A stretch of DNA of 22,847 bases, taken from a virus. The notes beneath the pieces were generated by a model, which worked only from the letters and a program-made list of their open reading frames with translations, was not told the DNA's origin and did no database searches. How positions within the stretch are numbered: position 1 is the first letter of the stretch; each line of letters begins with the position of its first letter. The position numbers and the translations under genes are program-made. The DNA is taken from IMG/VR virus record IMGVR_UViG_3300017527_000717, positions 1-22,847 of that record. One strand, given 5' to 3'. This document shows positions 7,668-20,209 of this stretch, one piece after another.

Positions 7668-8537
7668 TTAACCGCCAGGATTTGCAGGATTTGCATTACT
7701 GGCACTACTTCTTAAATATTCTAATCTTAATGGATTATCTGATTCAATTGTTTCTACAACAAATACAAAAGAATAGGTCATCAAATATGGTTTATCCGCT
7801 AGTATTTCAGGGCCGTTAAAACTTCTAAAATATCCCGTATAAAAATCTTCGTAAATTGAAAACCCAATTTTATAACTTTGTTTACTCAAAGGAGCGCCAT
7901 GATCCACTTCATATAATGTGCGTAATGTTCTTAAACTTTGCCACGCACTGGATTTACTAATATCAACACCATCAGATAATACTTGTCCTTTATTTCCTGG
8001 ATCTACATCATTACTAATATCTCTATGTAAACCTCCTGTTATTCCTTCTACTGTAATCTCAGTAAGTTTTTCTCCCCAGTGCTGAATATCCCAACCCCCT
8101 CTTGTTCTAACTTCTGTTATTAACTTTTGTCTGTTAAAAGATATTCTTTGAGGATTTACATAAAATTCAAATACTCTTGGTAATGGCTCTAGTTGAGCTA
8201 TTTCTACGCCGTCTCTAACTATAAAATATACATTCGTTCCAATGTATACAATATACTTTACCTGGTCATTCTCAGTGTTATTTGTTTCAAAAACAGGTAG
8301 AGGATTTATTAAATCATTATCATCAATCTCTCCTAATACATCTTGTGGGGCTAATTGAATATATCCTACTAATCTATCAGATACATTCGCTTGTGACCTA
8401 TCTATATCAGCATCTGTCTTATTCATTATATATTGCCAAGATTGAATTTCGCGAGTATCTTCTTTAGTATTTTTATCAACTTCATAAGAAACTGGTTGTG
8501 GTATTCTGTATAATTTAAAACGTATTCTATCTGCCAT
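7668..8537 (-). CDS. Putative baseplate / tail tip protein
   Basis: A 289-aa protein right after the tape measure gene, with which it shares one base (TAATG stop-start overlap), implying coupled translation. The most telling stretch is residues about 120-170: FEFYVNPQRISFNRQKL, then TEVRTRGGWDIQHWGEKL, then TEITVEGITGG. This FxxNPxxIxxxxxK...TRGGWxxQxWGxxLxxIxVxGxTG arrangement is familiar from phage baseplate or distal tail proteins that follow the tape measure. The C-terminal third has further strands (PYLMTYSFVFVVETIES) and a disordered Asn/Ala/Pro tail. No catalytic residues are evident. Position between tape measure and hub-like gene fits a baseplate wedge, tail-initiator or Dit-like role; which one cannot be decided here. 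Confidence 0.6.
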   Translation of the reverse strand: MADRIRFKLYRIPQPVSYEVDKNTKEDTREIQSWQYIMNKTDADIDRSQANVSDRLVGYIQLAPQDVLGEIDDNDLINPLPVFETNNTENDQVKYIVYIGTNVYFIVRDGVEIAQLEPLPRVFEFYVNPQRISFNRQKLITEVRTRGGWDIQHWGEKLTEITVEGITGGLHRDISNDVDPGNKGQVLSDGVDISKSSAWQSLRTLRTLYEVDHGAPLSKQSYKIGFSIYEDFYTGYFRSFNGPEILADKPYLMTYSFVFVVETIESDNPLRLEYLRSSASNANPANPGG

Positions 8538-10798
8538 TATCCTGTTACTCCTACAATTCCTTCCATTACTATACTTATAGCTCCTTGCTTCACTGCATCC
8601 TGTAATGTCTCATTTGCTAATACATCACCTGCAGCATTCATTATAATAATATTTAAGTTGGGTAAATCTTCTTTAGCTACATCTTTAGCTAATAAGTCAT
8701 CTTTTGTTTTCACATCATGCGCAGGCATCATCATATTTTCAGGTGTAATATTTCCTAAATAAGTACTTGACATAACCTCTTTTAACATATCATCGCCCAT
8801 CAATCTTTGAAAATAAGGCATTCTTTCTTGAAATTCTCCTTGAGTCATTTCTTTATTTTTTATTCTCTCCATCTCCATATCTATTATGGATTGACGCGCT
8901 GCGCCTTCCATCATTTTTCCGCCAGTAGGTAATCCGAGTACATCACCAAAAAGAAATTCTCCTATATCCCCAACTCCTCCGAGTGTGGTAGGCCCGCTTC
9001 TTTGATTTTCTATCATTTTAAGTTTATTAACATCACCGAAAGACATTCCTTGATCAAACATATCTACAAGATCTGCTATCTCTATACCTGCCGATAATAA
9101 AGCTCCGGCTGTTCCTAATACTTTTCCTCCTCCACGTAAGCCTCTACTAAGAGTTCTACCTACTTTGCCTGTAGTTTTACCTAACAATCCTGAAGTTCTG
9201 CCTACTGTCCCTGTTGTTTTACCTACAGTTCCTGTTTCAGATCCCCAAGGCACAAACCCTTCTCCTACAGTGTTCGTTACAGTAGGTATAACTGTTTCTG
9301 TAGCAGTGCCTAATATCTTAGGTATTTTCTTCATCAAATTTTTCGTCAGCTTTCTCATTATCAAACCAGACCCTACTATAGTTGCACCTGTCATTATACG
9401 AGGATCAATATCTACACCTACATCATCTAACAATTGTTGAGAGTATGTTGTAAATCCTTTAACTAAGTTTTCACCAGTTTCAAAAAGCCCGCTAGTACCT
9501 TTTTGAGAAGTTGCATCTAGTGCGTCCTGTATTGTTTTTGTTGTTTTTATAAAATCATTACCATACTTCATATTTCTAAAATTATCAGATATGTCTGTAC
9601 TTACATCTTTTATTTCTTTTAAATTATTTAATGTTTGTATAAGTTCAGGTGTAATTCCTAATGCTTTAAGTTTTTCAACTCCTCCTGCGTTCTTACTCCA
9701 TAATTCCATTATATTTTTAGGACTTTGTCCTTGTCCTGATAATCTATGGATCTGCTTTGCGAGTGTATTAATAAGATGTGTTCCACCTTCAGGGCCTGAT
9801 ATTGATTCTTGTGTTATGCCAGGTATTATATTTCTAGCAAGCATATTAGTCTGCAAATCATTTTGGAATTTAGGAACCATTCCAATTAACCCTTGTAATT
9901 CATTTACACCTGTCATCGGTTCATAATTTTCCATTATGTTAAGTATTTGATCAATCGCTACAGGCGCAGCTGTTCCTTGTTTCTTATACTGTAAAAGCCC
10001 TGAAGCAAAAGTTTCAGTCACTTCTCTTCCTGACATGCTTTTAAGTTCATCACCTGCTATAACTTCTGATGTCAATGATCTATAAAGATCTGTTACTTCT
10101 TCTGCATCAACACCAAAAGATTTAAGTTCGTCCCTTAACCTCATAAATCCTGTGACGGATACTCCTGACGCACTTTGTAGGGTAGTAAGTTGTTCTACCA
10201 AAGCATTTATTCTTGGTTCAATACCTTGTATAAATTTAGCACCATCTTCCTCAGACATTCCTTCTGGAGTTAAATCTGCAGCTAACTTTCTAAATAGATC
10301 TTTCTTCATATTAGCATAATCTTCACCATACTGACTATTGTACTCTAAAGATTTTCCAATAAAGTCTAATTGCATATCTAGTTGTGCTTGATAAAAATTG
10401 TCTGTGCCTCCAGGTAATTGACCTAAGCTCATAAACTGCCCCATCTGAGTAGAAGCTAACTTAGTTTGGCGTATGAGTTCAACCATACCTAAAGTCATTC
10501 CGGCGATAGCCCCTGTCACTGTCGCAAGATTCTTAGATTTAAGTACTAATTTATCAAACTCTACTTGCTGAGCTTTTGTAAAATTTGCAGCTTTTTTCAT
10601 TGGGTTAACAAATGCTGTTTCTAATCCAGTTGCAATTCTGCGCATGATGTATCCACCACTCAAAGGATTAGAAAGTAATTGTTTTAACGCACCGGAAAGA
10701 TCGGTCAATAGTGCAGTAGCTCCTGCTACCTGCTCAGCTCCGCTGACATTTAAATTAAGATTCTGAGTATTTTCTATACCGCCAATATCTTGAGACAT
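8537..10798 (-). CDS. Tail tape measure protein
   Basis: A 753-aa, largely helical protein in the canonical place, after two chaperone-position ORFs and before baseplate genes. It has hydrophobic glycine-rich helices (LATVTGAIAGMTLGMVELI near residues 92-110; MTGATIVGSGLIMRK near 470; KVLGTAGALLSAGIEIADLV near 560) typical of tape measure proteins, which thread the tube, set tail length and may contact the host membrane. By the usual rule of about 1.5 angstrom per residue, 753 residues would give a tail near 110 nm; this is an inference. A Gly/Thr/Arg/Lys-rich repeat covers residues 522-549. Its ATG directly abuts the preceding stop (TAAATG). No peptidase or lysozyme motif is evident, unlike some longer tape measures. 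Confidence 0.8.
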   Translation of the reverse strand: MSQDIGGIENTQNLNLNVSGAEQVAGATALLTDLSGALKQLLSNPLSGGYIMRRIATGLETAFVNPMKKAANFTKAQQVEFDKLVLKSKNLATVTGAIAGMTLGMVELIRQTKLASTQMGQFMSLGQLPGGTDNFYQAQLDMQLDFIGKSLEYNSQYGEDYANMKKDLFRKLAADLTPEGMSEEDGAKFIQGIEPRINALVEQLTTLQSASGVSVTGFMRLRDELKSFGVDAEEVTDLYRSLTSEVIAGDELKSMSGREVTETFASGLLQYKKQGTAAPVAIDQILNIMENYEPMTGVNELQGLIGMVPKFQNDLQTNMLARNIIPGITQESISGPEGGTHLINTLAKQIHRLSGQGQSPKNIMELWSKNAGGVEKLKALGITPELIQTLNNLKEIKDVSTDISDNFRNMKYGNDFIKTTKTIQDALDATSQKGTSGLFETGENLVKGFTTYSQQLLDDVGVDIDPRIMTGATIVGSGLIMRKLTKNLMKKIPKILGTATETVIPTVTNTVGEGFVPWGSETGTVGKTTGTVGRTSGLLGKTTGKVGRTLSRGLRGGGKVLGTAGALLSAGIEIADLVDMFDQGMSFGDVNKLKMIENQRSGPTTLGGVGDIGEFLFGDVLGLPTGGKMMEGAARQSIIDMEMERIKNKEMTQGEFQERMPYFQRLMGDDMLKEVMSSTYLGNITPENMMMPAHDVKTKDDLLAKDVAKEDLPNLNIIIMNAAGDVLANETLQDAVKQGAISIVMEGIVGVTG
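9152..9235 (-). repeat. Four 21-bp in-frame tandem repeats within tape measure gene
   Basis: Four imperfect 21-bp units (9152-9172, 9173-9193, 9194-9214, 9215-9235) encode, in protein order, TGTVGKT, TGTVGRT, SGLLGKT and TGKVGRT. A weaker fifth unit (LSRGLRG) may follow. The unit keeps a Gly at the second and fifth positions and a Lys or Arg at the sixth. Because each unit is a whole number of codons, copy number could vary without breaking the frame. Confidence 0.85.
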
Positions 10799-11551
10799 TT
10801 AATCACCTGAAGTTATTACATCTAATTCTTCTTCTGAAGGAGCACCCTTAAAAGAAACTGAAGTATTTTTACGTAATTGTCCAGCGACATCAGATGGAAT
10901 TGGAATATCCATATCTGATAAATCACCATCTACCATTAATTTACGTTGTTTATCATAATCCACATTTATTCTCTTATTATCTTGATTATCCTTATAATTT
11001 TTATACATTTCAGCATCCAGCCAAGGAAGAAGGCTTTCTCTTAAAGAGATAGCATAATTTGTCCAAAATTCTCTATCTGCAGTGTCACAAGCTGTGATCC
11101 AAACAGCCTTTGCATCGCTGCTTCTGCCTATATCTCCAGTATGCTTAAATTCCTTCCACCTTATTATGGAAATTGCGGTCTTGCAATACTCGGTCAAGTT
11201 CTTTTGCAAATAATTTTCCCAACTTGATAACATCCAAAGGTAATGACTATATAAACGTCCTAAAATAACAAAAGATATATTTCTAATACGGTCGGAATCT
11301 ACATCTCTGTTATTTATTTTGCTTATTAAACTTGTAAGATCTTGTATAAAAATATCGTCACGAGATTTAGTAGGTATTTGAAAGGTTACAGATACGTTAC
11401 GCAATTCAGACTCTTTCCAATCTTTAAATGGAAAAGTAGTAATCTCAGGAAGATCTTCACCGAATAAAAAAGCACTTATATCATCAAAATTAAACTTCTG
11501 TTGATGCGGATCGGGCGTCTTTATCTTCCAACTGTTGCTTACGTTCCTCAA
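10799..11551 (-). CDS. Second ORF of the tail assembly chaperone position (250 aa)
   Basis: This ORF lies directly upstream of the tape measure gene and overlaps the preceding ORF by 62 bases in the +1 (or -2) frame. That placement is where myophages and siphophages carry the second, often frameshift-made, tail assembly chaperone. The called start is TTG at 11551, preceded by AAGGAG at 11563-11558 with a 6-base gap, which favours independent initiation. Residues 41-46 contain FPFKDW, echoing PFKDW near the start of the upstream ORF. The middle (residues about 88-170) is helical and Trp-rich (LGRLYSHYLWMLSSWENYL, WKEFKHTGDIGRSSDAKAVW). Residues about 210-250 look disordered. Chaperone function is inferred from position; I do not recognise the sequence itself with confidence. 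Confidence 0.6.
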   Translation of the reverse strand: MRNVSNSWKIKTPDPHQQKFNFDDISAFLFGEDLPEITTFPFKDWKESELRNVSVTFQIPTKSRDDIFIQDLTSLISKINNRDVDSDRIRNISFVILGRLYSHYLWMLSSWENYLQKNLTEYCKTAISIIRWKEFKHTGDIGRSSDAKAVWITACDTADREFWTNYAISLRESLLPWLDAEMYKNYKDNQDNKRINVDYDKQRKLMVDGDLSDMDIPIPSDVAGQLRKNTSVSFKGAPSEEELDVITSGD

Positions 11552-12248
11552 AACTTTCTCCTTCTTTAGTCGCGGGAATTTCTGGTTTGTTATTCTCTAC
11601 ATTAGGTTCAGATTCTATTACTTCTTCTTTTGGAGTTAATGTGTTTGCGGAAATTATAATGAAATCCTTTTGATAATCTCCAACATATCCAGCAATACCT
11701 TCTGGTGTAATTATTTCAGCTAATTCATACTTAACATAGAATGAACCTGCGGGAATTGCGGACTTAGGGTATAATTGATTTGTAATTCCGCATATTACAT
11801 TGCCTTGTAATTGCCGAGCTTGTTTTAAAGTAAGCGCGCCATACACAGCATCAAGTCTGTCTACTACAACCTTCTCTAAATTACGTAAGAAGATAGATAC
11901 CCATTCTCTAGGAGATTGAAAATCGGTTTTATTAGCTTCATTATATCTTGTTAATTCTTCAGCATTAATTAAAGATCTACCTTCTATAGAAAGAATTGAT
12001 CTAGAAAGAATTTCAAACTTTGCGAACTCTAATTGAGCATTCTCATCTTTCCCTTTGTTCTCTGCATTGATATCTAAAATTTCCCCGGCATTACATAACC
12101 TCATAGAAAATATTTTATCCTTCCACGCATGAGATCCTTCCCAGTCTTTAAATGGCTTAACTTCATAAATACCATCGCCATTCAAAGCCCCAAGATTTTC
12201 AAAAGATTCGGCTTGTGGATTTTCCACGTTACCTGTGATTAGTCTCAT
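11490..12248 (-). CDS. Putative tail assembly chaperone (first ORF, 252 aa)
   Basis: A 252-aa protein located between tail tube and tape measure. Residues about 25-55 (GDGIYEVKPFKDWEGSHAW, then KDKIFSMRLCNAGEILDI) and about 100-150 (NLEKVVVDRLDAVYGALTL) resemble tail assembly chaperones of large myophages, with the PFKDWEG...WKDK...RL..GEILDI and LEKxVVDRLDAVYGxL arrangement. The helical core is followed by a beta-like segment and a Glu/Lys-rich C-terminal tail from about residue 212 (EVIESEPNVENNKPEIPAT). Such proteins coat the tape measure during tail assembly and are not in the finished virion. The gene follows a terminator-like hairpin, suggesting lower expression than tube and sheath. 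The last 62 bases overlap the next ORF, leaving room for a programmed frameshift. Confidence 0.6.
   Translation of the reverse strand: MRLITGNVENPQAESFENLGALNGDGIYEVKPFKDWEGSHAWKDKIFSMRLCNAGEILDINAENKGKDENAQLEFAKFEILSRSILSIEGRSLINAEELTRYNEANKTDFQSPREWVSIFLRNLEKVVVDRLDAVYGALTLKQARQLQGNVICGITNQLYPKSAIPAGSFYVKYELAEIITPEGIAGYVGDYQKDFIIISANTLTPKEEVIESEPNVENNKPEIPATKEGESFEERKQQLEDKDARSASTEV
11558..11563 (-). promoter_or_regulatory. Shine-Dalgarno AAGGAG deciding a TTG start inside the upstream gene
   Basis: AAGGAG on the minus strand lies within the coding tail of the first chaperone ORF. It ends six bases before the TTG at 11551. It is a near-ideal ribosome binding site and is the main argument that the second ORF is separately initiated. 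A strong internal Shine-Dalgarno can also stimulate frameshifting, so it does not exclude that. Confidence 0.6.
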
Positions 12249-12345: not shown

Positions 12346-12798
12346 TTACTGTCTGCTGACTATGATCCTCTCAGGCCATAATGTAACAGATTCAGTTACC
12401 GTGATAGTTCCTTCTCTGATTGTTTTGCCCCATGTTTGAATCCAACAACGTTCATAAACGATTATACGTGAAGGGCTACCAAGTGATGCAGGGCCTCTTA
12501 CTTCCTCTACAATTTGTATTGGATCAGTAACTTGAGATATATCTTCAAAAGTTGCGAAGCCTAATTCTTCCATCATACCAGCATTATAGGTTTCAAGTCT
12601 ATCAAGTGAAATGGTAAACTCCGTTCTACCAGGAACTATTTCAACAATATCATCTATCTCGTTAAGTATTTCTCTTACTCTCTCGAGGTTACGATTTGCA
12701 GAAGGATTAAATCCTTGGACAGTTCCTATCACAGACCCATTAGCTTTAACGGTGTATGCATAGGATGCAACAGTTGTTGTATTAGGAATACGAGTCAT
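12346..12798 (-). CDS. Tail tube protein
   Basis: A 150-aa protein immediately after the tail sheath gene (19 bases), the usual place and size for a myovirus tube protein. Visible features are VKANGSVIGTVQGFNPSANR, RVREILNEIDDIVEIVPG, RTEFTISLDRLETYNAGMME and the C-terminal strand GTITVTESVTLWPERI, giving the alternating beta sandwich with one helix known from gp19-type tube proteins. In that family, hexamers stack around the tape measure to form the conduit for DNA inside the sheath. No truncation or odd composition is seen. Translation is probably coupled with sheath on one transcript, and a terminator-like hairpin follows it. Confidence 0.75.
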   Translation of the reverse strand: MTRIPNTTTVASYAYTVKANGSVIGTVQGFNPSANRNLERVREILNEIDDIVEIVPGRTEFTISLDRLETYNAGMMEELGFATFEDISQVTDPIQIVEEVRGPASLGSPSRIIVYERCWIQTWGKTIREGTITVTESVTLWPERIIVSRQ

Positions 12799-12817: not shown

Positions 12818-14272
12818 TTATACGTAAGTTGATACTGTTACTGAAATATATTTCAGCGGATATAGATATTTAATTGAACAGGTCACTTCAATTCTTCTAG
12901 GCTCAACAGGATCCTGTTTAGCAGATATTTTTGTTTCTCCTGTAGAAGGATCATCATTAACACCGTAACCATAAATCTCACCTTGTACAACTAATGATCT
13001 TAATATAGCTTCAGTAGTTGCTATAACATCGTTCGGTGTAGTAGGAAGAATTACTTTTCCTTTACCTGTATAAGTATTTTCTAATCCATTTCTTAAAGAT
13101 CTCTTAACTAATCGTTTCTGAGATATAACTGATATTTCTTGTGTATCCGCACTAGTTGGGTCAGTGGTTATGGCATCTCTAATCTTAATAAAGTTAGATT
13201 TGCTCTCTAATACCAGGCAACCATTAGCGGCTAAGAAATTCATTTCAAAATCAGTCCATTTTTCATTTGTTATCGTAATACCTGCAACAGGCATTCCTGT
13301 AATAGGTGTACTTCTCTTGCGTTGTGCTACATGTTTTCCTGCAACAGCGGATGCTAAGAAGTTACCATCTAATATCATCGCATTTCCACTTTCATCAGTT
13401 CTTGCACATTCAGAAGGTACAACATATACACTATCTTCACTTCTTAATACTGTAGACCTGTAAGTATAAGTACCGGCAGTGGCAGGATCTCCTATAGCGT
13501 CAAAACCATCACTTGCAAAATTATCAGACGGAGAACCTTGCATAAGTCCTCTTTCTTTTCTATTCTGATTCATCTTGCCAACATGAGTAAAAGCATAAAC
13601 TAGTAAAGTTTCCTGTTGTGATCTTGTAACAGAACCACTAGGGAATACAACTACTACTTGTTCGATATAGTTATACTTCTCTAAATTATCAATTGCGGTC
13701 TTATAAGCTGTTTCATTATAAGCTGACCCTGATGCTTGTGATACTAATACAGCGGGTGCGCCATTTTCTAAATTAATTGCACCAGCAACTGATAAAATAC
13801 CAGTAGTGGCACTTTCTGATCCATGCTTTTCTGTTAGTAATTTCTTATCATTAAATAGCGTTGGTGTAAATTGAGAAGCAGGTACATCATATGTGTACGT
13901 CACAAAATAAGTATTACCAGAAGATGGAACATCATCTCCAGAACCTGACCAGGTAAGAAATCCTGTGGCATCTACAGATGCGCTTGCTGCATTATATAAT
14001 CCACCACCTGCTGAAATATGGGCATAACTAACAAGCCCTTCTACAATTCCGGCGAATGAAGCTATTTGAGATACAGCTACTCCAGCAGCTGAAAATGCGG
14101 CTAGATAATCGATTGACCCTGTTCCTCTTACAACAGCCTCGTCAGTCACTACACGAGTCATAGAGCCCATACCGACAATCGCAGTCACTCTTGTGGCTTC
14201 TCCTAAGTTAATCAAACGCGGATTATCTAAAACTGTTACATCCACTCCAGGTGGGCTATAAACTGTTGACAT
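12818..14272 (-). CDS. Contractile tail sheath protein
   Basis: A 484-aa protein starting STVYSPPGVDVTVLDNPR, the N-terminal arm signature of sheath proteins (the Y.SPGV pattern that interlocks neighbouring subunits). The middle has surface-type Gly/Ser/Ala-rich segments (about residues 48-175) followed by the sheath core, with YNYIEQVVVVFPSG and a conserved-looking region VAGKHVAQRKRSTPITGMPV. The C-terminal region (RRIEVTCSIKYLYPLKYI and a final strand) is the usual closing strand that completes the inter-subunit sheet. Length is normal for the family. The start has GGAGG eight bases upstream. It is the first gene of the structural block and proves that the phage is a myovirus. Contraction drives the tube through the envelope. 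Confidence 0.92.
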   Translation of the reverse strand: MSTVYSPPGVDVTVLDNPRLINLGEATRVTAIVGMGSMTRVVTDEAVVRGTGSIDYLAAFSAAGVAVSQIASFAGIVEGLVSYAHISAGGGLYNAASASVDATGFLTWSGSGDDVPSSGNTYFVTYTYDVPASQFTPTLFNDKKLLTEKHGSESATTGILSVAGAINLENGAPAVLVSQASGSAYNETAYKTAIDNLEKYNYIEQVVVVFPSGSVTRSQQETLLVYAFTHVGKMNQNRKERGLMQGSPSDNFASDGFDAIGDPATAGTYTYRSTVLRSEDSVYVVPSECARTDESGNAMILDGNFLASAVAGKHVAQRKRSTPITGMPVAGITITNEKWTDFEMNFLAANGCLVLESKSNFIKIRDAITTDPTSADTQEISVISQKRLVKRSLRNGLENTYTGKGKVILPTTPNDVIATTEAILRSLVVQGEIYGYGVNDDPSTGETKISAKQDPVEPRRIEVTCSIKYLYPLKYISVTVSTYV

Positions 14273-16159: not shown

Positions 16160-17137
16160 CTAAAATAATAAAAAATTATAAGGTCTAATTTCAGTCATTT
16201 CATATTTATCAAAAATAGGTTCAGGCGATGAAGATAACGACGCAAGTTTATTCTCACGCCCTTTAAAATCTAATTTATCTAGAGGAGCATCGTAAAAATC
16301 GTTCAGTGTGACTAATCTTTTACTTATTACCATATTTTCCCGATTGCCTATTAATACACTTTTAATATACGCACTTGTAGTAATATCACGTATGTTAGCA
16401 AACCAATCTCTGATCCTGCCGTTATCATTAAGAAGTTGTACTGCAGTTTTAGGACCTATCCCTGCAACACCAGGTACATTATCACTGCTGTCTCCTACTA
16501 AACAAAGATAGTCAGATAAGAAATCTGGAGTTATTCCAAATTTCTCTTTTACTTTTTCAGTTGTGTATTCTACGTAATTACTATGAGAAGGTGTACATAC
16601 TGTTACGCGCTCATTAACCAATTGTAGCATATCCTTATCATTAGATATTATTACAATCTTAAAATCTTCAATTGTATTTTGTTTCTTCTCTAATATAGAT
16701 TTCACAAGTGATGCTATTACATCATCACCTTCATATCCTTTATCACTAGTATATTGAACCCATCCTAACCTAGAAATTGCTAATTGGATATCTTCTATTT
16801 GATCATCTAGCCCTTCTCTTGTGTTTTCATTTCTATGAGATTTGTACCCAGAATAGAGTTGCTTGCGTAATAAATTCTCTCTCTTATCACCCCAACAAAA
16901 ATAAAGATCAACAGGGGAATGTCGTTCTATTTGATTTTTTAACATCAAAAAGAAACCATGAAATGCCCCTTTCAATAAACCTGCAGTAGTCCTTAAAGTA
17001 TTCTTTTCACATGTAAAAGCATGGTAACCTATATGAGCTAAACTTTCAGCGTCAATAACAAAATATACATTTTGTGGATTACCTACTATTATCTCAGTTC
17101 CGGAAGGCTTGTTATTATTGATCTTGATGACTGGCAT
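16160..17137 (-). CDS. 5'-3' exonuclease / flap endonuclease (FEN)
   Basis: A 325-aa protein of the PIN-like FEN family. Metal-binding motifs are in order: VYFVIDAESL (Asp29), GYEGDDVIASL (Glu136, Asp138, Asp139), IISNDKDMLQLV (Asp167, Asp169) and CLVGDSSDNVPGVAGIGPKT (Asp216, Asp219), the last running into the helix-hairpin-helix DNA clamp. RKQLYSGYKSHR near residue 91 is the usual basic helical-arch region. The family removes RNA primers and 5' flaps in lagging-strand synthesis; here it is a separate gene, complementing a polymerase that lacks this domain. It overlaps the small gene upstream by 23 bases. The start ATG at 17137 has GAGAT upstream. No catalytic residue appears to be missing. 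Confidence 0.88.
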   Translation of the reverse strand: MPVIKINNNKPSGTEIIVGNPQNVYFVIDAESLAHIGYHAFTCEKNTLRTTAGLLKGAFHGFFLMLKNQIERHSPVDLYFCWGDKRENLLRKQLYSGYKSHRNENTREGLDDQIEDIQLAISRLGWVQYTSDKGYEGDDVIASLVKSILEKKQNTIEDFKIVIISNDKDMLQLVNERVTVCTPSHSNYVEYTTEKVKEKFGITPDFLSDYLCLVGDSSDNVPGVAGIGPKTAVQLLNDNGRIRDWFANIRDITTSAYIKSVLIGNRENMVISKRLVTLNDFYDAPLDKLDFKGRENKLASLSSSPEPIFDKYEMTEIRPYNFLLF

Positions 17138-17551: not shown

Positions 17552-20209
17552 CTATGCTAATAGTCCATTTGCGACTATTTCTCTATTTTTCATGAGATTA
17601 TTATACACGACATTCCAGTCATCTGTAATATCTATTTCTTCTAAAGATCCCCAATGTGTACCTACTTGAAGTTCGGCAAGTAAAGGTACTATAATAGGTT
17701 CAAATGCTTCATCTTCAGGTTTTCTTTTCATCTCAACATGTATCAAAGCAAGTACTTCCTGAAGTTCATTATCCGGAATATTAAATATCAAAGAATCATA
17801 TACTGTAAGTACTAATCGTGTCTTTAATTCTTTTGCCCATAAATATCTATGTATTCTAATAGCTGCCATAAACGTTAAATCAGATGCAGCAGATTGGATA
17901 GGGGCGTTGATGCATTGTCTTTCAGCTTCTGCCATCTTATTACTATCCGAAGAAAGTATATCTTTTAATCTTCTTTTTCTTCCAAATAAACTTTTTGAAT
18001 AACCATCTACTCTAGTATGCGCGGTAGTAGTTCTAATCCATTTATATGCAGAAGGATATCTTCCAAAGAAAGCATTTATAATAACTTCGGCCTGTGTTTT
18101 TGAAATGCCTAACTGTTTAGCAACACTAGCTGAACCTCTTCCATACATCAATCCAAATACTACATTCTTAGCTGCCTGTCTTTCAGGTTTTATAACATCT
18201 GCTATAAGTTCTTCGTATACGTCGTCTGGGAGATTACCTTCGGGAATAACTTTCCCCTTCCCCGCTGCTGCCATCAACTTATGTATATCAATGCCCATAT
18301 TCAAATCATAAAGTGCTTGCTTATCTTTAGCATAATCTATCCACATACGAAATTCCGCTTGTGCTAAATCCGCTTCACATAACCAATTTATAGGCTGTCC
18401 AGGGATATCAGGATCACAACAAAAAATATCTTTAATATCATCAGCTGTTCCTGTGCGTGGGATATTATTAAGATTAGGATCTCTTGAAGAAGGTCTTCCA
18501 GTTACAGTACTATGTAACAAATAATTTGTATGTACTCTATTCTTTTCAGTTAATCTGCCTCTTATACCATCCAAAAAAGTACTTTTAAGATGGCTCAATG
18601 TCCTATACTTTGAAATAGATGCACAAAATTCATTCTTCTTAGCATATTCCTCTAATACTTCAGCATCTGTACATGCTCCTCCTGACTTTGTCTTTTTAAT
18701 TACAGGTAATTTCATCCTATCAATCAATAACTCTTTGAGTTGTTTAGGAGAATTAATATTAAATTCAAAATCAAGTAACTTTGGTTTCTTCGATAACCTC
18801 ATACTAAGATAATCTTCAAATGTAGGATGTCGTTTAACAAGCGTTTTTGATCTACTCCAATGTGCTTTTATTTCTTCCTTTACCTGATGTATACAGTCAT
18901 ATTCATATTGACGTACTTGAGGAACGTTTTTCACTACATCTAATTGAATTTCCATTCTGTCAGTGTAACTCTCGATAGTCTTTTCTAAATAAGGTACATC
19001 AATTGATACACCATTGTATTCAGTAGTTAATAAAACTTTACTTGTAGGAATCATAACCTTATTATGTACAAAAGATAATCCTTCTTCTTCAATTAAAGGA
19101 TTCATCGCCAAATATGCTCTTAATGTTACATCAGCATCAGCCGCAGCATAAGGATGTATCACATCCATTGGGATATCTTTATAGTTATCAATTTTATTTT
19201 CGTTCTTGTATTTTTCTAAAGGAGCATCATAGCCTCCTATATCAGTATATTCCCATGCCAATAATTCTAATCCATGTTTTTCGTTTTCATTGAGTAAATA
19301 ATGCATTAGCATAGTATCTGCAATAAAATTTCTAACATATATTTCATGTGTTATAAAACATTGTATATCATAACTGCCATTTTGAAATACCTTGCGACTT
19401 TTATTCTCCATGACTTCTTTTACTTTAGACCAGAAATAATATGAATCATCTTTAAAATATCTACTATCCAATAATACTGCGGAATGAGTCTCCCAAGAAA
19501 ATGAAATAATAAAAATCTCAGCTTCTAATGGATTCAATGATGTTGTCTCAGTATCGCACGACCATAAATCATGTGTATGTAATTTGTTTACAACCCAGTC
19601 TAATTGTGCTCTATTAGTTACGATGTGATAATCGACTGGCTCAGGTTTATCAACTGTTATTTTACCATCAATGAAATCCGCGACTTTCTTCATATCCTTT
19701 ACTATTTTAGATCTTTCAATTGGATTCACTTCAAGATATGAAGGAGAAAATGTAGGTAATACTTGGCATTTAAGTTCTGGATGTGTAACCATCTCTCCTC
19801 TTGCTTGGGTAATAGCGCCAAGAGCAGGGAATATAGTTTTAAGTGCAATACTTCCTAACGGTACTATCAATTCAGGTTTTAATTCCTCAATTTCCTTGTA
19901 CAAATATTTTGTACATGTATTTATTTCTTTTTTGCTAGGTGTTTGATTATCAGGAGGTCTACAATTTACAATGTATGCAATTCCTACAGTAGATAAATTA
20001 ATATTTACTTCTGTGCATATCTGTCTAAATTTTTTACCTGCAGGCCCACAAAAATAAGATTGTTTACTACTATCTTCTTTACCGGGCTTATCATCTATTA
20101 ATAAAACCTTTGCACCTTCAGGCAATCTAGAAGGAACAACTCTAGATAATTCATTACCTAGTTTACAATCCCGGCATGCACGATCATGGTGTGATTTAAG
20201 TAACTCCAT
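17552..20209 (-). CDS. Family A DNA polymerase with N-terminal UDG-like domain and 3'-5' exonuclease
   Basis: The 885-aa protein has three parts. Residues 1-180 resemble family 4 uracil-DNA glycosylase (SPO1 polymerase-related): CRDCKLG (Cys12, Cys15), VNCRPPDNQTP (Cys83) and Cys99 could form the Fe-S site, but the GE(A/G)PG motif reads DDKPG and the catalytic HP motif reads FSPSYL (Ser155), so the glycosylase is probably inactive. Residues about 200-365 are the proofreading exonuclease: SCDTETTSLN (Asp219, Glu221), NGSYD (Asp281), YAAADAD (Tyr354, Asp358). Residues about 560-885 are the polymerase: TVTGRPSS, motif A CEADLAQAEFR (Asp614), motif B RQAAKNVVFGLMYG (Arg677, Lys681, Tyr689) and motif C VYDS (Asp805), where VHDE is usual. 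It shares one base with the gene before it (TAATG). This is the likely replicative polymerase of the phage. Confidence 0.92.
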   Translation of the reverse strand: MELLKSHHDRACRDCKLGNELSRVVPSRLPEGAKVLLIDDKPGKEDSSKQSYFCGPAGKKFRQICTEVNINLSTVGIAYIVNCRPPDNQTPSKKEINTCTKYLYKEIEELKPELIVPLGSIALKTIFPALGAITQARGEMVTHPELKCQVLPTFSPSYLEVNPIERSKIVKDMKKVADFIDGKITVDKPEPVDYHIVTNRAQLDWVVNKLHTHDLWSCDTETTSLNPLEAEIFIISFSWETHSAVLLDSRYFKDDSYYFWSKVKEVMENKSRKVFQNGSYDIQCFITHEIYVRNFIADTMLMHYLLNENEKHGLELLAWEYTDIGGYDAPLEKYKNENKIDNYKDIPMDVIHPYAAADADVTLRAYLAMNPLIEEEGLSFVHNKVMIPTSKVLLTTEYNGVSIDVPYLEKTIESYTDRMEIQLDVVKNVPQVRQYEYDCIHQVKEEIKAHWSRSKTLVKRHPTFEDYLSMRLSKKPKLLDFEFNINSPKQLKELLIDRMKLPVIKKTKSGGACTDAEVLEEYAKKNEFCASISKYRTLSHLKSTFLDGIRGRLTEKNRVHTNYLLHSTVTGRPSSRDPNLNNIPRTGTADDIKDIFCCDPDIPGQPINWLCEADLAQAEFRMWIDYAKDKQALYDLNMGIDIHKLMAAAGKGKVIPEGNLPDDVYEELIADVIKPERQAAKNVVFGLMYGRGSASVAKQLGISKTQAEVIINAFFGRYPSAYKWIRTTTAHTRVDGYSKSLFGRKRRLKDILSSDSNKMAEAERQCINAPIQSAASDLTFMAAIRIHRYLWAKELKTRLVLTVYDSLIFNIPDNELQEVLALIHVEMKRKPEDEAFEPIIVPLLAELQVGTHWGSLEEIDITDDWNVVYNNLMKNREIVANGLLA

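Follow-up and report, generated by a model that had tools for sequence, protein, structure and literature searches.

Overlapping genes that very probably encode separately initiated short and long tail assembly chaperones in a contractile-tailed phage

Two overlapping open reading frames (ORFs) of a virus record, here called A and B, very probably encode the short and the long tail assembly chaperone of a contractile-tailed phage as two separately initiated proteins. This reading follows from the existence of related gene pairs that do not overlap, from the lack of a shared slippery site, from a base composition that favours the phase of the overlap and from a strong Shine–Dalgarno (SD) sequence ahead of the TTG start codon of B. 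The window (the whole virus record of 22,847 bases analysed computationally here) carries the overlapping pair on its minus strand. Tail assembly chaperones interact with tape measure and tube proteins but do not form part of the virion. Many phages make the short and long forms through a ribosomal frameshift, which counts among the most highly conserved recoding events in phages; the title of a 2004 work by Xu et al. reportedly makes the same point.

On the minus strand, the gene order is tail sheath, probable tail tube, ORF A, ORF B and tape-measure candidate, the ATG of the last lying immediately after the stop of B. The pair thus occupies the place of tail assembly chaperone genes, between the tube (probable) and the tape measure (recognized from position and length). 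The features discussed below are as follows, in window coordinates:

12818..14272, minus strand: tail sheath gene (PHROG tail sheath, E 4e-25; tblastn 28.7% to the Bacillus phage G sheath)
12346..12798, minus strand: probable tail tube gene (PHROG virion structural protein, E 2.3e-8; position after the sheath)
11490..12248, minus strand: ORF A, 252 aa, short-form tail assembly chaperone (G type), with ATG start and TAA stop at 11492-11490
11820..12206, minus strand: predicted G-type domain of A, residues 15-143 (range aligned to 3klu)
11643..11801, minus strand: zinc-ribbon-like part of A, residues 150-202 (alignments; weak ZZ-domain fold matches, Z about 3)
11597..11599, minus strand: TAG, the last stop in the frame of B upstream of B (sequence)
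11571..11579, minus strand: ATT CCC GCG, earlier candidate +1 site, absent in L013
11558..11563, minus strand: AAGGAG, SD sequence of B (anti-SD pairing)
11549..11551, minus strand: TTG, start codon of B (SD; matching N-termini in relatives)
11490..11551, minus strand: A/B overlap, 62 nt (ORF coordinates)
10799..11551, minus strand: ORF B, 250 aa, TTG start, putative long-form chaperone that combines a G-like domain of its own with a T part
11180..11488, minus strand: G-like N-terminal domain of B, residues 22-124 (hhalign to the N-domain of A; similar helix/strand order in models)
10937..11179, minus strand: T part of B, about residues 125-205 (hhalign to the part of gp182 beyond its join)
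8537..10798, minus strand: candidate tape measure gene, 753 aa (position and length)

The tube gene also gave a Pfam Phage_tube_2 match, at an E of 0.015 that lies below the cut-off, and the tape-measure candidate had no convincing match to families (PHROG, Pfam) or to phage records. The ORF coordinates bear out the original prediction of a 62-nt overlap with B in the +1/−2 frame. The upstream stop, which had been placed near 11602 with about 110 bases available for switching, does exist, but it is the TAG at 11599-11597, and the frame of B (+1 relative to A, equivalent to −2) is open for 107 nt before the TAA of A, the possible switch zone. AAGGAG and TTG were confirmed at 11563-11558 and 11551-11549, and the ATT CCC GCG proposed as a +1 slip is indeed present at 11579-11571. 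When the 20 minus-strand ORFs are taken in order, five neighbouring overlaps are found, of 62, 23, 4, 1 and 1 nt. The overlap of 23 nt (17115-17137, between ORFs of 127 and 325 aa) is also in +1 phase and is the sole other same-strand overlap longer than 4 nt.

Neither A nor B gave a tblastn match at E 1 in 50,697 phage records, and the tape measure likewise had none in phage records. No relatives came out of single-protein scans of viral contigs, run with A, B and the sheath, and a scan of genome contigs with seven A sequences returned 20 pattern matches and no relative. Distant relatives of the sheath were found in Bacillus phage G, Rhodococcus phage E3 and Gordonia and Mycobacterium phages, phage G being the nearest among named phages. 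Seven named-phage records were examined around the sheath; six of them place a short chaperone ORF, with an extension offset by −1, in the interval from sheath to tape measure. The two are annotated as a two-piece join in five of these six and as a possible slippage fusion in E3, and the seventh record (Tunturi_5) has no annotated chaperone in the examined stretch.

A profile scan with seven sheaths retrieved 47 IMG/VR loci, 11 of them at 37-74% sheath identity, and scans with the A and B alignments added L065, L068/L069, L070 and L074. Two sets were drawn up, in both of which loci are counted singly and kinship is ignored. The window-type set (n = 13) comprises the window and 12 loci having A plus a long B; L012, whose contig ends before A, was left out, as were the near copies L016 (ORF lengths and overlap equal to those of L015) and L069 (coordinates and printed proteins equal to those of L068), and L059-L064, L066, L067 and L071-L073 were dropped as contigs already represented. 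The frameshift-type set (n = 27) comprises 26 of the 36 loci L023-L058, plus L074; eight loci without a tape-measure candidate, together with L032 and L042, were left out, and among the 27, L054 is doubtful and several are IMG copies of named isolates.

From its model and profiles, A looks like a G-type (short-form) tail assembly chaperone. The best Foldseek matches of the model in BFVD were phage G gp181 (E 5.4e-5) and then gp182 (E 2.5e-4). Among solved structures, the highest scores were obtained with PDB 3klu, YqbN (Z 7.4), and 2ob9, the HK97 tail chaperone (Z 7.0). Both values fall short of Z 8, the level under which the tool cautions about common arrangements; the third row reached Z 4.8 and the rest about 3 or less. 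A profile of 13 A sequences matched gp181 with a probability of 94.5% (E 7.8e-8). The G-type fold of a short form is thus found in A, and the tail chaperone identity that had been proposed for the pair is supported by the gp181 match, by the 3klu and 2ob9 fold matches and by the profiles. In the C-terminal part of A, two CxxC knuckles are seen in L014, L015, L017, L018, L021, L065, L068 and L070, with a further C..C...F...H...C finger-like motif in L014, L021, L065 and L068; the window and L013 have lost most cysteines of this zinc-ribbon-like part.

B, for its part, looks like a long-form chaperone made of a diverged copy of the N-terminal domain of A followed by a T part. Profiles detect both the G domain and the T domain of a long form in B, with probabilities of 87% for the N-domain and 91% for the T part. 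For the N-domains of B and A (hhalign, 13 sequences each), the score was 38.2 and the maximum over 200 column shuffles was 20.9; column shuffling breaks sequence order and is a lenient control, and the reversed profile gave an E of 0.38. Whole A and whole B profiles of ten sequences each matched with a probability of 8%, a forced global alignment of the two N-domains with 16%, and the single sequences by BLASTP with an E of 0.017, while the N-domain of B gave no match to gp181 (probability 4%). The match between these two N-domains is the weakest link in the domain-copy argument. FKDW occurs in both ORFs, at residues 33-36 of A and 42-45 of B, and the related N-terminal parts which this motif had suggested gain support from the hhalign match and from the models, built from ten-row alignments, in which helices and strands follow one another in much the same order in A and in the first half of B (mean pLDDT 76 for A and 70 for B).

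The T part of B matched gp182 beyond its join (13 sequences; E 1.2e-6) from extension residue 7 on, and the B profile did not match the actinophage extensions (0.2%). The N-terminal stretch of B, about 110 residues long, has no counterpart in the phage G extension. The B model had no significant match among Foldseek viral models (best E 0.29). Its similarity to the HK97 chaperone (Z 3.3) was tied with unrelated chains; matches to exosome and prion chains, at Z 2 to 3.5, were taken as noise, and the HK97 match is no better.

The TTG of B lies 6 nt from AAGGAG, whose pairing with the anti-SD of the 16S tail (−8.8 kcal/mol) ranks second among 19 gene starts in the window, after that of the sheath (−9.3). 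Pairing as strong as this is found for 0.9% of the 1180 start-like codons on the strand. A start codon precedes the conserved B block in 13 of 13 loci, and in eight of them the SD pairs at −5 kcal/mol or more strongly, at a spacing of 6 to 12; the SD is weak in L014, L015, L017, L018 and L021, and these five weak starts count against separate initiation. Good start signals, which an ORF reached by frameshifting could do without, are thus found at B in the window and in most loci. As far as sequence can tell, B has what a separate gene would have, namely its own start and a copy of the domain of the short gene.

The N-termini of B agree between relatives. Indeed, B begins with M-[RK]-[NS] 16 to 20 residues before a conserved F in the window, L013, L014, L019, L021, L065 and L068, although SD strength decided which of several possible start codons was taken in L019, L065 and L068, and N-termini are readily brought together by the aligner. 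In the non-overlapping L014 and L021, B starts with M-[RK]-S 16 residues ahead of the conserved F, and in L013 with M-R-N likewise. In the window and L013, the start of B is read from TTT GAG GAA of A, and A keeps the residues of six of eight codons; between these two, two silent changes in the eight compared codons of A alter B. In the window and its nearest relatives, F-E-E in the frame of A supplies T-TTG-AGG-AA, that is, the start and first codons of B. No stable RNA structure was found around the start of B (z of +1.25 for folding against shuffles in the window). Internal initiation at the TTG, one of the options of the original prediction, is therefore favoured by the AAGGAG pairing, by the matching starts in relatives and by the two non-overlapping pairs.

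These two pairs are those of L014 and L021, in which B starts 41 and 23 nt after the end of A and the B frame opens only past the stop of A. No single frameshift can therefore join them, and the overlap that a frameshift would need in every relative is present in 11 of the 13 pairs. The phase is +1/−2 in all 11. As counts over the 13 A genes (3091 codons) indicate, this one-sided phase has a plain cause in composition: start-like and stop codons number 272 and 223 in the +1 frame and 85 and 354 in the −1 frame, so that more starts and fewer stops are available in the phase observed. This fits the compositional phase bias of overlaps as described by Sabath and colleagues in PMC2542354.

A sheath tree was built with 12 of the 13 window-type loci (L068 has no sheath in the available stretch, and the sheaths of L014 and L019 are partial) and 22 of the 27 frameshift-type loci. 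The 12 window-type rows form one group, with support of 100/99, against the 22 frameshift rows. On this tree, L014 and L021 do not come out as sisters, which suggests that the overlap was lost or gained more than once. As the root is the midpoint and phage G and L023 have long branches, we infer the direction of change, from frameshift to separate genes, rather than read it from the tree.

The frameshift-type loci look different around the end of A. In all 27, the −1 frame is open for at least 82 codons past the stop of A, a count that is not blind because the A ORFs were picked by hand from ORF lists and annotation with the question known; in five of them (L030, L031, L037, L052 and L053), the +1 frame is also open for at least 84 codons. 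An X-XXY-YYZ heptamer lies within 75 nt of the end of A in 25 of the 27, and GGGAAAA is found near the end of A in 21 of the 27, versus 0 of the 13 window-type loci. Heptamers of the −1 type in the window-type loci L017 and L019 were taken as chance since the −1 frame closes there 31 and 4 codons past the stop of A.

The long chaperone could instead be an A–B fusion made by programmed frameshifting, +1 or −2, somewhere in the 107 nt of the zone, and the TTG would then go unused. The location of the pair would suit such a shift, as −1 frame joins are found at this place in relatives, and so would the single phase of the 11 overlapping pairs, which is equally a point against separate initiation, as are the weak resemblance of A and B in sequence, the failure of the N-domain of B to match gp181 and of B to match the actinophage extensions, and the lack of a significant fold match for the B model. 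Moreover, five +1 re-pairing sites lie in the window zone, CCC-G among them, and alone among the other ten zones, that of L070 has a CCC-G of its own, elsewhere in the zone. However, L013, the closest relative with both genes, lacks the CCC site in its zone, and codons of the A frame able to re-pair after a slip occur about as often as in 500 codon shuffles: 8 of 11 zones have +1 sites, where shuffles average 8.0, and 9 of 11 have −2 sites, where they average 8.6, the zones of L020 and L022 having neither kind. There is no shared slippery site, as no 8-mer occurs in more than two of the 11 zones, and none of the +1 sites, −2 sites or −1 heptamers is conserved; a search for a shift-stimulating structure, made in the window and L013, found none. 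Two of the 13 pairs cannot shift at all, and the fusion would carry two G-type domains. We thus consider this frameshift very improbable, and the original suggestion of a +1 slip at CCC-GCG or a −2 shift as in Mu is not upheld. Of the conservation that was proposed as a check on it, the overlap and its phase are kept in 11 of 13 pairs, but the slippery bases are not.

Both modes could also coexist, B being mostly initiated at the TTG with a minor A–B fusion arising from low-level frameshifting. Such shifting is compatible with all results, and SD-like sequences can also stimulate frameshifts; but it would act without a conserved signal and is impossible in L014 and L021, so that we hold this mixture to be very improbable. 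As to a sequencing or assembly error, which would turn A and B into one gene or a −1 frameshift pair, the window is one metagenomic contig, and when a 23-base piece of the overlap was searched for exactly in viral contigs, no other copy turned up. The same overlap phase nonetheless recurs in ten other distinct contigs and B has its own G-like domain, and the chance of such an error appears negligible.

With separate initiation, ribosomes would translate A from the ATG at 12248 to the TAA at 11492-11490, and other ribosomes would start B at the TTG at 11551, by way of the AAGGAG within the last codons of A, on an mRNA predicted to be free of stable structure there. B would bring its own diverged copy of the G-type domain along with the T part, and fusion to A would therefore not be needed. 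In better-known phages, the T part binds tube subunits. The ancestor probably reached the T part through −1 frameshifting, a route apparently kept by phage G and L074, and the frameshifting relatives suggest that, in the group of the window, the shift gave way to a duplicated G domain linked to T. We propose more tentatively, as a possibility we would rather doubt than assert, that the ratio of the two chaperones is set by two ribosome-binding sites instead of recoding, that the coat of the tape measure mixes two diverged G-type subunits and that the start of the long gene within a conserved motif of the short gene would tie the two genes together.

Phage Mu chaperones use a −2 frameshift, in the same relative frame as B of the window; the window type differs in having no conserved −2 site and in the start signals of B. 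Bacillus phage G resembles the window in that A matches gp181, in that the T part of B matches the part found only in gp182 and in the order of the genes relative to sheath and tape measure. It differs in that gp182 is annotated as a two-piece join with an offset of −1 and A-AAA-AAC at the junction, and in that its extension does not match the N-domain of B. In L074 (L074:4378-5147), the short chaperone is followed by an extension that comprises the T part only, lies in the −1 frame, has a nine-A run ahead of it and lacks a start of its own. This extension matches B of the window at 44% over 45 aa, and L074 is, on the sequences compared, a link between the frameshift type and the window type.

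Separate chaperone genes are themselves an already known strategy, as they have been reported in T4-like phages and in some Microbacterium cluster EA phages. According to the PRFect paper, PMC10274946 (citing Vladimirov, Gautam and Davidson 2022), the frameshift is replaced in some T4-like phages by two genes, a short one and a separate one for the long fusion. Compared with that description, the window shares the separate short and long genes, but its G-type domains are alike only at profile level, its long gene starts inside the short one in +1 phase and its sheath is nearest to phage G. Some Microbacterium cluster EA subclusters are likewise described as having two chaperone ORFs, apparently expressed separately and without evident frameshift (PMC7302621, PMC11659878), and the chaperones of an EA1 phage as encoded by two separate genes (PMC11659878). 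Short and long isoforms and a −1 frameshift are described for Pseudomonas phages in PMC12846349.

What is new here is the combination of diverged G-type domains with a long gene that starts inside the tail of the short gene. The group of the window was not found in the literature searched, where uncultivated contigs could not be looked up by name. Set beside its frameshift-type relatives (phage G, L023 and L074), this group offers a natural comparison for asking why a set ratio of short to long form is needed. For annotators, overlapping chaperone ORFs before a tape measure need not mean a frameshift.

Some neighbouring genes vary between loci. L018 has a 362-aa ORF between sheath and tube (L018:8529-9617), where the window has none, and in L065 a 787-aa repeat-rich protein follows B (L065:5642-8005), by eye unlike the tape measures of the window and L068. 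Elsewhere in the window (17552-20209), an 885-aa ORF encodes a family A DNA polymerase with uracil-DNA glycosylase and 3'-5' exonuclease domains. A scan with this polymerase returned three loci, none of them used for the overlap: L011 at 29% identity, and L009 (contig IMGVR_UViG_3300017613_003143, 44,934 bases) and L010 at 100% identity over the matched part. The last two probably belong to the same phage, as an adjoining stretch of its genome recovered in other samples. The polymerase of the window is about 30% identical to those of SPO1 and of Lysinibacillus phages.
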